Positions 5,389 through 48,400 of a stretch of 64,000 nt of DNA are shown here, piece by piece. Position 1 is the first letter of the stretch; the number at the start of each line of letters is the position of its first letter. The notes under the pieces were generated by a model that saw only the letters and a list, made by a program, of their open reading frames with translations, was not told where the DNA came from and made no database searches. The DNA comes from Phorcus lineatus (taxonomy: Eukaryota; Mollusca; Gastropoda; Trochida; Trochidae). The stretch lies in NCBI GenBank assembly GCA_921293015.1, contig OV121098.1, positions 10,081,016 through 10,145,015 of the forward strand, written 5' to 3'. The translations under genes were made by a program, and so were the position numbers.

Positions 5389-8300
5389 ATGGAAGAGAGC
5401 GCCATGGTCGGTCTTATCATAGGGATTATTATACTTGTCATTATCATCATTGCTTTCCTCGTATTTGGAGTTTGGTTGTGGAAGAGGCGACACAGACTAG
5501 GTGATATGTTCATATTATGATTCGCAACGCAATGAGGGTAATACATTTTCATGTTAAGATCACATCACTTACAGATCAATAACTGAATGTACAATATACA
5601 GGTTGTTGTTTTTTTGGTTTTTTTTTTTTTTTTTTGATGTTTTTCAAGTTATTTTAATTTCGTAATTCTCGAGCCTTGGCGAGAGAATTACACAATAAGC
5701 ATGGCGAGGGAAAGAAAATCTGTCATTTCTCGTCATGAGTTGGTTATTGTTTATATCGTTTTGAGAGTAGATTTTGAACAATGCCCTGTTGCAGTCAAGT
5801 TCACAATTGTTTTCATCATCAAGTAATGACATCACGATGCTATGACGTCATAAACATGATTACGTCATAAGGCCATGATATCCCTGCACTGAGAGTCTTG
5901 AAGTAGTGTAGTGTTCAGAAATATAATGTTTTCACGGAATCGAGATGACAAATTATCTTGAATGATAAATAGAATCTCAACCTCGTGTCTTCTTATATCA
6001 AATATATCAACACTCGTTGATAAAAGTAAAAATTTGTAACTATGTAACTTTTATCAACTCGTGTTGCTATATTTTATATCAGATGATACTTGGGTGAGAT
6101 TCTCTATATATTTAACACTTTGTTACATTAATTTAAAGACGTCAGCCTACCGTTATCCTTTAAGACAGCTCAAACTGAAATTTTTGTAACGTAACCTATG
6201 GCACTGTGGCGTCATAGCCGCTCGTGTCTATGACGTCATTACAGTAGAACGAAACCAGGCGCTTTTTTCGCGATTGTAAGCAAATCGTTTTGACGTAGTA
6301 TTTCAATAATCGCCAATTTCTATACATTTGTACAATTTGGCAGAAGTATTTCACATTTTATTGCGTTGTCACACATGAAAAATAACGAATGGCAACAACG
6401 TGGAACAAATAAGCCTTGTAACATGTAATATACGGTGAACAAATTACAAGCCGGGAAAAGTTTAAAAGATGAATGAAATAGTCCTGGCACAACGTTCATT
6501 GTCATTGGTTCACACCAACCAATCATATTCTAAGAAAATGTGTAACTCCCGTGTGACTTACAAGAAAACTACTACCCTGTGTCCACCTTACCATATGGGT
6601 AAAATAACGAATCGTAATATATGTAAATATAATCACGAATGTATTTGTTAAGATTGTACATAAAATTAAAAACTAGGTGATGAAGAAAAAGTTATTTGTC
6701 GTTTTGCAAAATAATAGCATAATAGATATATTTACAACTGTGGACTGTTTTTGTCAAAGCAAAATATTGAATGATATAAATCAAAACTTAGAAGGATACA
6801 TTTCTATCACATATTCTAACTGTTTCTTTCTCTGAATTGGAATGTGCCTCGTTTCAGCTCTCAAACGAAGAACCACAACGAGGCCGACAAGCAGTATGGT
6901 CACAGTCAGTGACACCATCGTCGGTATGTCATTAACTTTATGGTATCAATACAACAACATTGTAACAGTCAGTGACACCATCGTCGGTATGTCATTAACT
7001 TTATGTTATCAAGACAACCACATGGTAACAGTCAGTGACACCATCGTCGGTATGTCATTAACTTTATGGTATCAATACAACAACATTGTAACAGTCAGTG
7101 ACACCATCGTCGGTATGTCATTAACTTTATGGTATCAATACAACAACATTGTAACAGTCAGTGACACCATCGTCGGTATGTCATTAACTTTATGGTATCA
7201 ATTCAACAACATGGTAACAGTCAGTGACACCATCGTCGGTATGTCATTAACTTTATGGTATCAATACAACAACATTGTAACAGTCAGTGACACCATCGTC
7301 GGTATGTCATTAACTTTATGTTATCAAGACAACCACATGGTAACAGTCAGTGACACCATCGTTGGTATGTCATTAACTTTATGTTATCAATTCAACATGA
7401 CAACAGTCAGTGATAACATCGTCGATATGTCATTATCTTTATGTTATCAATTCAACATGACAACAGTCAGTGATAACATCGTCGATATGTCATTATCTTT
7501 ATGTTATTAATACAACCACATGGTAACAGTCAGTGACAAAATGCGTCGGTATGTCATTAACTTTATGGTATCAATACAGCCACATGGTAACAGTCAGTGA
7601 CACCTTCGCTGGAATGTCATTAACTTTATGTTATCAAGACAACCACATGGTAACAGTCAGTGACGCCATCGTCGGTATGTCATTAACTTTATGGTATCAA
7701 TACAACAACATTGTAACAGTCAGTGACACCATCGTCGGTATGTCATTAACTTTATGTTATCAATTCAACAACATGGTAACAGTCAGTGACACCATCGTCG
7801 GTATGTCATTAACTTTATGGTATCAATACAACAACATTGTAACAGTCAGTGACACCATCGTCGGTATGTCATTAACTTTATGTTATCAATTCAACAACAT
7901 GGTAACAGTCAGTGACAACATCGTCGGTATGTCATTAACATTATAGTATTAATATTGCAACATGGCAACAGTCGTTATTCCCTTCGTTGTTATATCCTGA
8001 TCTTTAATCTATTTATATAGCAACATGACAACAGTCAGCGATACCATCGTTGATGTATCAGGACCCCTGATTTATCGGTAGCTCATTATTCACGGGTTAA
8101 TCTTTACTAGTACCCAATCATGCATTCAAATGTGTCCTTTTTCGTGACTTTTTGATTATTTTTAAGTTTAGAAATATAGAAGGGTTAAACCTCGCTAACA
8201 AAACTAATTTTCACTGAATTTCTCTATGTGAATATTTCACTCTGTTCCAGCTAGCCCGCACGACTACCGATTGAGCCAAAACATGCTTTCACTACCAGCA

Positions 8301-45400: not shown

Positions 45401-48400
45401 TAGGTTTTCAGTAGTGATCGAAGAGTCACAAAAATTTATTATCTAAATTCTTCATTAGTCAAGGAGTCTGTACATAAGATTTCAGATTTCCTGAGGGAAT
45501 GGTTATTGAAAGAAATGAAATAAATAAAAGTTTACACAAGGATGACAAAAGGCTTAAGTAACCACATGCCATGCCATAAGCCAATCAGACCTTTAAAATT
45601 CAAAATAGCGCCATTTGCTCTGTAGCTCATCAGGGTCTGCAGATATGCCAGAAATGATTGAACCAAAAAACTCATTTTATTATCAGAAAAGTGTTAATTC
45701 AGCAGAAATATCACAATGTTTTATGTAGAAATGTTTCAAAAGATAAGTAAAATCAAATCTCAAAATCTGTAAAATCAAATCACCAAATCTATAAAATCCT
45801 TATCACCTAAAGAGTGGACAGAAAGTTTCTTTCTACAGCTTTAACTTCTGGAGGGGTCAATGGGTCACTGGGTTACCAATCTATAGATTAGAAACCTTGA
45901 TAGTCAAGGAGTCTGTACACAAGCTTTCTGATTCTGTATTCAGTGGTTCTGGACGTCATTGGGCCTTTCAAACCAGATGCGCTAAAAATCAATGATATAA
46001 CATATTTTACCTTAGACTCTCTAAAACAAATCACAAATACTCTCTAACTTTTCTTATCTAGACTTCCGATGTCTCCATCCAACAATGTTGCCACCCGTCT
46101 TCTCATTGTGGCTACTAGCTATAAATTAACACGGACAGTATCTATATGAGCTCATTACAGTATAATACCTCTACATGACACTTCTGATGTCTCCTTCCAA
46201 CAACGTTGCCGCCCGTCTTCTCATTGTGGCTACTAGCTATAAATTAACACGGACAGTATCTATATGAGCTCATTTCAGTATAATACCTCTACATGACACT
46301 TCTGATGTCTCCGTCCAACAACGTTGCCACCTGTCTTCTCATTGTGGCTACTAGCTATAAATTAACACGGACAGTATCTATATGAGCTCATTTCAGTATA
46401 ATACCTCTACATGACACTTCTGATGTCTCCATCCAACAACGTTGCCACCCGTCTTCTCATTGTGGCTACTAGCTATAAATTAACACGGACAGTATCTATA
46501 TGAGCTCATTTCAGTATAATACCTCTACATGACACTTCTGATGTCTCCATCCAACAACGTTGCCACCCGTCTTCTCATCGTGGCTACTAGCTATAAATTA
46601 ACACGGACAGTATCTTTATGAGCTCATTTCAGTATAATACCTCTACATGACACTTCTGATGTCTCCATCCAACAACGTTTCCACCCGTCTTCTCATTGTG
46701 GTTACTAGCTATAAATTAACACGGACAGTATCTATATGAGCTCATTTCAGTATAATACCTCTACATGACACTTCTGATGTCTCCATTCAACAACATTTCC
46801 ACTTGTCTTCTCATTGTGGCTACTAGCTGTAAATTAACACGGACAGTATCTATATGAGCTCATTTCAGTATAATACCTCTACATGACACTTCTGATGTCT
46901 CCATTCAACAACATTTCCACTTGTCTTCTCATTGTGGCTACTAGCTGTACATTCAACATCTACGGTCACTTCATCCCATTTCACTAACCAATCCAGGTTC
47001 TTCAGAGAAAACATTCTTGCTATTCTGAAAAATGAGAAAATACATTTAGTAGATGACTTGAATTCTATTGGTTTTATGTTTTTGTATGAAAACTTTATTA
47101 TGATAACCTTCAGCAAGTTTTGGTAAAAATAGAGCCATTGGCCCTGTGGTCACAAGGTCCCCATCTGGGTTGCAGATTAAAATTTTTCCGGTAGGACATT
47201 TTATTTAGGTTTACTGGAAGTGAACTTTGACATTGATTTATTATGATAATAACATGAATAATATACATAAAGGACAATAAAAGATATAATGATGGGTTTT
47301 CATGGAATAATAATGAATTTGAAGCAATATCTACATTAGCAGCTTTCCTAAAGTTTAGCAAGAAAGCCTGCAACACCATTGTGGATATATGCTTTGCGTG
47401 AAACCTGTTAGCATTGGCTGAAGCTAGGGAACCATGGGTGGTCTGTATTGAAATTCAGTGTAGCATTGCACCCAAAGCTTACTGCATGTAGAACAGTTCT
47501 CTACTGCAGACAAAGTTTGAACTACAGACCTCTTGATCCTAAGCTGAATGTGCTAACCACTGCCCTCTTGTTTCAAGAGAAGATGAAAATAGCTTTTTTT
47601 AGAAGTGTTGCCTGTGGCTCTTACTAGGTTTCACAGGGTCAACCAAATCTATAAATTATAATCCCCATCAATTAAGGTCTTTACACAAGGTTTGAGTTCA
47701 GCTTTCTAGCCTGACTATTGCTTCTTGAGAAGATGAAAAAAGTAGGTGTTTAAGTTGTAGCCCCTTAGGGGCAAGAGGGTCACAAAATCTAACAATTAGA
47801 AACCCTTTCAGCTAAGGAGTCTATTTGGGCCTTCCAGTCCAAGTGATCTTGAACTAAGTCATTACTAGCATGAAATATGAAAATCATATTGTTTGATAAT
47901 GGTGATGATAACATCAATGACAATATCAAAGATAAAAAGATAAAAAAAAGGACCTGGATATATGTTACTATTTCTAGGTACCAAGGAATATTCATGGTGT
48001 AGTCATTCCGATGATCACTATCATTTAGGATCAGGATGAAGAACCAAAACTGTAATCTTTCAAACTCTGTAAAATGCAACAAAAATAAAAAATTATATAT
48101 ATAAAAAAAAAATCTTTCAAACAGGACTGATCTGTTGTTTCAGTAGAAAAATGTTTATGGTAAAAAAAAAGAAGAAATAATTATACCTCCTGTTCGAACA
48201 TCTGATCAAGAAGAAGAGACCAACGATTGCACCTCCCCCTAATATCAAGAGGAGAAAAACGAGAAGAGGCAAGAACATGCCACAGGAGACACCCTGGAAT
48301 CCGCTGTCACAGTCACATGGTGCCATAGCTCCACACATACCATTCACACATGGTGTCCTGAAAGGAGAAGAATCACAATCAAAATCTCCATCAGCAAAGA

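Follow-up and report, generated by a model that had tools for sequence, protein, structure and literature searches.

Mirage-like tandem arrays at predicted 5′ splice sites of two genes in the gastropod Phorcus lineatus

Introduction

A stretch of 64,000 nucleotides from Phorcus lineatus (assembly GCA_921293015.1, contig OV121098.1, positions 10,081,016 to 10,145,015; hereafter the window, with position 1 as its first letter) carries tandem repeat arrays in two genes which take in the predicted end of an exon together with its 5′ splice site (donor) and continue into the intron. A preliminary description of this sequence had drawn attention to the arrays, and the question arises whether a mechanism acting at the donor generates them or whether ordinary tandem duplication is sufficient. 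We suggest, with a probability of about 0.65, that the four arrays are mirage-type minisatellites which arose by ordinary tandem duplication and are tolerated since the upstream donor is used. The name comes from lancelets, where tandem repeats across exon–intron boundaries were termed "mirage" minisatellites and are described for Adh3, the globins BflGb6 and BflGb9, PGBD5, and troponin C (PMC3087553, PMC3902484).

Arrays of intact donor copies would be a natural experiment in which the spliceosome chooses one donor from identical ones, and they are a possible first step toward new introns. With four such arrays in two genes over ∼40 kb, this genome would be well suited to testing whether duplication is attracted to donors. 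Our search of the literature, mostly at listing depth, returned no report of donor arrays as a genome-wide feature.

Structure of the arrays

Tandem arrays were called with Tandem Repeats Finder (TRF), and the exonic shares were read from the TRF edges or by eye. All four arrays start within a predicted exon, pass over its donor and extend only into the intron (Table 1), and the predicted introns continue beyond the arrays to acceptors which lie outside them. The exonic share before the donor amounts to ∼28 nt in the 63-bp array (array 1), 11–13 nt in the 28/36-bp array (array 2), 72–82 nt in the 118-bp array (array 3), and 10–12 nt in the 44-bp duplication. A repeat unit which spans an exon–intron boundary, the hallmark of a mirage, is therefore present in each of them on predicted exons and at 28491 on a firm exon end.

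The preliminary description, namely that an exon end with its donor is the first unit and that further units run into the intron, holds for four of five sites, firmly at 28491 and probably at the other three. It fails at 22874, where a duplication of ∼107 bp matches exactly from intron position +3 onward and contains neither exon sequence nor the GT of the candidate donor; lacking both, this duplication was rejected as a member of the class. The 28/36-, 118-, and 44-bp arrays lie near the places given for them, the two genes are indeed different (a receptor guanylyl cyclase on the minus strand and a predicted small transmembrane protein on the plus strand), and the arrays differ from one another in sequence and unit length. 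The 63-bp array was placed nearly correctly at 6896–7935, but it is longer, as TRF follows it to 7973 and two degenerate units, identical to the exon unit at 41/63 and 38/63 positions, reach ∼8087. The arrays had also been said to grow downstream. They do run into the intron, but this is largely forced by geometry, because a functional donor ends the exon and surviving copies consequently sit in the intron.

We suggest that a short tandem duplication across the 5′ splice site of an exon would place a copy of the exon end and donor inside the intron. Slippage or unequal exchange within the intron would then have added more copies in three of the four introns. As long as the authentic upstream donor remained functional, the array would be spliced out with the intron and would be largely free in length, and the exon end would be kept as the fixed first unit since it is coding and selection holds the exon itself. 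Use of the upstream donor, an origin by slippage and near-neutrality of the arrays are what we infer from these structures. In array 3 the second unit equals the exon unit across all 72 exonic and 34 intronic bases compared, and units 3–7 differ from the exon unit at 6–8 of 72 exonic and at 0–1 of 34 intronic positions. Such a pattern is expected if the exon unit was copied locally, which we infer here. In the 44-bp case, GTCATGTATGA stands at the exon end and GTCCATGGATGA directly past the array, a similarity expected from slippage between short direct repeats.

Enrichment at donors

The answer to whether tandem arrays are enriched at donors depends on the null chosen. Exons were chosen by hand and joined by script for two genes, to which the counts of splice sites are confined, and this two-gene model gives 24 donors and 26 acceptors (25 acceptors in the test with unit-length seeds). 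By merging overlaps the 26 TRF rows were reduced to 15 arrays, with runs of period 1, 2, and 6 (8387–8684, 19541–19565, 52494–52539) left out. All P values are uncorrected and apply to a window picked because the feature stood out.

When the 15 arrays are treated as fixed segments, four fall on donors versus 1.85 expected (P = 0.08; rotation P = 0.07), edges lie within exons in four cases versus 1.5 expected (P = 0.076) and any exon is overlapped in four versus 2.6 (P = 0.25). The subset of eight arrays with at least 3 copies and a period of at least 20 gives P = 0.18 for donors (rotation 0.14) and P = 0.045 for edges (rotation 0.03), and the 11 arrays of at least 90 bp give P = 0.07 and P = 0.025, respectively. 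For the 10 arrays inside the two gene spans the count on donors is four versus 2.1 expected (P = 0.11). Arrays of the gene spans covering a donor without an acceptor number four versus 0.53 expected (P = 0.00085), and if acceptor-covering placements are disallowed the probability of four or more is 0.003.

Counting by position, we found a tandem copy within 400 bp at 4/24 donors versus 197/1694 deep-intron positions (P = 0.30), a conservative test since the deep-intron counts contain the same four arrays. The corresponding counts are 0/26 for acceptors, 12/376 for exon bodies, and 154/1500 for random positions, while introns near donors and near acceptors gave 43/255 and 44/255. A site scan at 1.5-kb range likewise returned 4/24 donors and 0/26 acceptors, and 16% of 600 random positions reached a score of at least 20. 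We judge unit-length seeds to be the most apt null, since the growth of an array starts with a small duplication. Under this null only 0.25–0.37 donor-straddling arrays are expected versus the four observed, with a probability of at most 1e-4 for four or more and of 0.001–0.003 for three or more. The rule for straddling (per unit, 10 or more exonic nt and 6 or more intronic nt) was fixed after the four cases were known, the smallest of which has 10–12 exonic nt.

The comparison of tandem arrays and splice sites with shuffled positions, as proposed for the whole genome in the preliminary description and here run in the window, is positive for seeds and for donor-only coverage and negative for fixed segments and for the test by position. 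As the nulls disagree, neither "no enrichment" nor "strong enrichment" was accepted as a final verdict. We also rejected a firm asymmetry between donors and acceptors: the contrast of 4/24 with 0/26 has a Fisher P of 0.046, acceptors compared with the intron rate give P = 0.03–0.04, and fixed segments let 2.1 acceptor hits be expected (P(0) = 0.07), but the seed null expects just 0.26–0.36 acceptor arrays.

These numbers bear directly on the idea of donor-directed instability, in which transcription-linked breaks, R-loops, or repair templated by the exon end promote tandem duplication at 5′ splice sites. The results with seeds and with donor-only coverage speak for it, as does the recurrence in several lancelet genes in print (PMC3087553, PMC3902484). 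On the contrary, the donor P values for fixed segments are 0.07–0.18, tandem copies at donors are no commoner than the coverage of introns, the window was selected for the feature and the straddle rule was set after seeing the cases, three of the four sites belong to one gene, and in lancelets acceptor-side boundaries are duplicated as well (PMC3087553). We therefore consider donor-directed instability unlikely, and a mechanism acting at the donor, which had been offered as a possibility beside chance, is unsupported by a null-dependent result from a window picked for the feature. We would also give little credence to the broader claim that, outside lancelets, a donor-directed process and not tolerance alone seeds recurrent tandem duplication at 5′ splice sites and feeds new introns or isoforms.

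Certainty of the exon ends

By homology, donor 28491 is a firm exon end, as the joined cyclase domain aligns continuously through the junction to NPR1 (E = 3e-65, with one single-residue gap further along). The exon ends at 6923, 46877, and 61581 are probably genuine, resting mainly on the reading frame. At 61581 the join is in frame and the ANF_receptor match starts directly after the junction; compared with solved structures this region gave weak matches only (best E = 0.028). At 46877 the frame is accompanied by homology to the NPR1 kinase domain which starts two residues ahead of the junction. Chains of RIPK2 were listed from 15 residues ahead of the junction, but they were missing among the 55 hits for a shorter query, and as the kinase N-lobe upstream of 46877 is poorly matched this exon end is probable rather than proven. 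The basis at 6923 is the reading frame and the splice signals of five consistent phase 1 exons.

If the exon ends were younger than the repeats, an intronic minisatellite with donor-like sites would have pre-existed and the exon end would later have moved into its first unit. Using donor scores from a matrix built from 20 window donors outside the arrays, a donor-like site of at least 4.4 occurs in 26–45% of intronic draws of 63–118 bp and one of at least 8 in just 5–6%, and the array at 18193–19182, where no exon is known, holds a site scoring 7.9. However, the exonic stretch of the unit at 28491 encodes GMHSG, residues which align with NPR1, so that there the exon preceded the array. An array that came first is improbable.

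Decoy donors and the consequences of their use

The preliminary description had expected many decoy donors, and the arrays indeed hold many of them, most with scores close to that of the authentic donor. Beyond the first unit, a GT is present at the donor position in 13/18 units of array 1, 7/7 of array 2, 6/7 of array 3, and in the single further copy of the 44-bp case. In array 1 the authentic donor scores 8.1 and the 13 later units with GT score 8.1–8.4, the GT being changed to AT in two units. The authentic donor of array 2 scores 10.5 and its seven decoys (six GTGAGT and one GTAAGT) 10.3–11.0, save one at 4.8. In array 3 the authentic donor and six GTATTA decoys all score 4.4, and the final unit has no GT.

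Nevertheless, the upstream authentic donor is probably used and the decoys ignored, as judged from the reading frames. Splicing at the first donor gives in-frame joins and NPR1-like sequence through the 28491 junction. Read-through past the first donor would add GE and a stop in array 2 and VLY and a stop in array 3, so that translation would end after 2–3 codons and ahead of the first decoy, and use of the decoy in the 44-bp case would add 44 nt and shift the frame. Tandem exon duplication would call for copied exons which are usable in frame. In array 3, seven of the eight units end in a stop in a frame one base off the exon frame, the one that a copy would take if it were spliced at the AG inside the unit.

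Array 1 is the place where decoys might be used, such that the small transmembrane gene gains in-frame repeats of 21 residues by donor choice. The unit of 63 bp is a multiple of 3, the units stay in the exon frame, and an open frame leads from the exon up to a stop at 7508–7510. Seven donors upstream of this stop score 8.1–8.4 and each would add 21 residues per unit, and a 60-nt unit beyond those seven would add 20. On the other hand, five of the six variable positions among seven 63-nt units (units 1–8 without the 60-nt unit) alter the amino acid, so that coding constraint is not suggested; among the later units there is a stop as well as a frameshift, the change of GT to AT affects two units, and splicing reportedly proceeds undisturbed by lancelet mirages, reverse transcription PCR suggesting that it is regular (PMC3087553). 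We see only a slight chance that the decoys are used in this way, and a coding variable number tandem repeat was rejected as the principal interpretation of array 1.

It is very improbable that copy numbers or entire arrays are assembly artefacts, for although the copy number of the lancelet PGBD5 array differs between two assemblies (PMC3902484) and the draft assembly of a lancelet globin mirage was described as aberrant (PMC3087553), the units here carry point changes, unlike a simple assembly duplication, and the PGBD5 repeats were backed by re-sequencing (PMC3902484).

Several observations weigh against tolerated ordinary duplication. Neutral tolerance is not an obvious fit for four donor-straddling events where the seeds predict 0.25–0.37, and the zero acceptor arrays agree with the seed null (P(0) = 0.69–0.77) and so give no good evidence for a selective filter. 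Homology does not run well through the junctions at donors 6923, 46877, and 61581, and the score of donor 46877 (4.4) is near the lower end of the range of the 20 training donors (4.0–11.0). Identity falls as units lie farther from the exon, but the trend does not reach significance for units 2–19 of array 1 (rho −0.46, P = 0.057) or for units 2–7 of array 3 (rho −0.70, P = 0.12). A decayed third copy could account for the resemblance seen around the 44-bp case, and splicing at any of the seven decoys in array 1 would leave the frame intact.

Comparison with known systems

In lancelet PGBD5, the first repeats of 60 and 108 bp adjoin 5′ splice sites, an anatomy like that of the window arrays; the authors left open whether duplication, heterozygosity, or assembly error is the cause, with re-sequencing speaking against error (PMC3902484). 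Lancelet mirages include acceptor-side duplications (PMC3087553), whereas in the window none of the 26 acceptors is affected. In addition, mirages were reported from cephalochordates, where splicing and instability were tested. They would extend the kind of array known from lancelets, possibly to another lineage. The GC content of the window (35.5%) is lower than that of lancelets (∼41%).

In human segmental-duplication genes, variable internal tandem repeats share the location at exon–intron boundaries, but new introns or changes of exons are attributed to them (PMC2812944), whereas the window shows no new intron. Intron gain by tandem duplication likewise copies splice signals across an intron–exon boundary and yields a new intron, whereas the window copies lie inside an existing predicted intron. 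We rejected intron gain here, since no new intron bounded by copies is seen and 0/26 acceptors have a tandem copy within 400 bp. Repeated donors are also known from the human 6-16 minisatellite, reportedly in IFI6, which is said in the title of a 1995 report in Nucleic Acids Research (NAR) to provide multiple splice donor sites; by that title several of them serve the transcript, whereas in the window we predict splicing at the first donor only. Minisatellites in intron 1 and exon-4 duplications missing from transcripts are reported in an earthworm paper (PMC12783039), and an intronic minisatellite tied to alternative splicing in a Caenorhabditis elegans paper (PMC4039745); boundary-spanning arrays are not described in the available parts of either.

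Gene models and other features of the window

The receptor guanylyl cyclase gene, on the minus strand, has 21 exons within the window, with no start found and all joins open. The joined protein matches the Pfam families Guanylate_cyc (E = 6.8e-60), PK_Tyr_Ser-Thr (E = 1.8e-32), and ANF_receptor (E = 4.5e-07). A tblastn search of the window with NPR1 as the query gave 13 matches, nine on exons of the receptor cyclase and four elsewhere. The plus-strand gene encodes a predicted 111-residue transmembrane protein with one hydrophobic stretch on five exons; this protein matches no Pfam family above the cut-off.

Table 1. Arrays and associated exons, in window coordinates (a slash marks the exon junction)
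Feature	Position	Strand	Remarks
Array 1, 63 bp	6896..7973	+	TRF 17.2 copies, 91% matches; spans donor 6923
Array 2, 28/36 bp	28250..28501	-	TRF periods 28, 36, 64; spans donor 28491
Array 3, 118 bp	46062..46958	-	TRF 7.6 copies, 96%; spans donor 46877; last unit truncated
44-bp duplication of exon end and donor	61494..61590	-	TRF 2.2 copies, 98%; donor 61581
Predicted exons, small transmembrane gene	5368-5500, 6858-6923, 8251-8301, 9409-9456, 10401-10459	+	All joins phase 1; open reading frame of 111 residues
Predicted exon 2, small transmembrane gene	6858..6923	+	Final 28 nt form the exonic share of unit 1 in array 1
Catalytic-domain exon, guanylyl cyclase	28491..28643	-	End GMHSG/P; NPR1 alignment continuous over junction
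Juxtamembrane/kinase-homology start exon, receptor cyclase	46877..47024	-	Frame CSNRR/IARMF...HVE/EFNIATL; kinase homology from join
Extracellular-domain exon, receptor cyclase	61581..61739	-	Phase 0 end; ANF_receptor match just past junction

Some peculiarities of the receptor cyclase should be mentioned. The kinase-homology domain (43230–46877, minus strand) seems to be without most of its N-lobe, the PK_Tyr_Ser-Thr profile being matched only from position 45, and no missing N-lobe exon was recognised by eye between 46062 and 43231 among reading frames of at least 25 residues. Between the ligand-binding region and the membrane span, EGF-like sequence is found at 48187–51555 on the minus strand (EGF_TEN, E = 3.2e-09, below the cut-off); to our knowledge, this is unusual for receptor cyclases. 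The intron following the VTIFF/SDIVGF exon has a GC donor at 33288 (minus strand, CAG/GCAAGT) and contains an open reading frame (31215–31901, minus strand) with weak reverse-transcriptase/RNase H-like Pfam matches below the cut-off (E = 0.0007).

Searches of the window with Rfam at the gathering threshold and for tRNA genes gave no hits, and a 26-base pattern of the array 1 unit had no match in viral contigs. Elsewhere, there are open reading frames for an ISXO2-like transposase (13893–14903, plus strand; PF12762, E = 7.9e-15) and for a protein with ankyrin repeats (20395–21534, minus strand; Ank_2, E = 8.8e-60). A direct duplication of ∼1.2 kb (2335–3593 and 3640–4863) is identical at 1200 of 1220 aligned bases. 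Finally, the array at 18193–19182 on the plus strand consists of 19.4 copies of a 51-bp unit with the donor-like sequence CTG/GTATAT.

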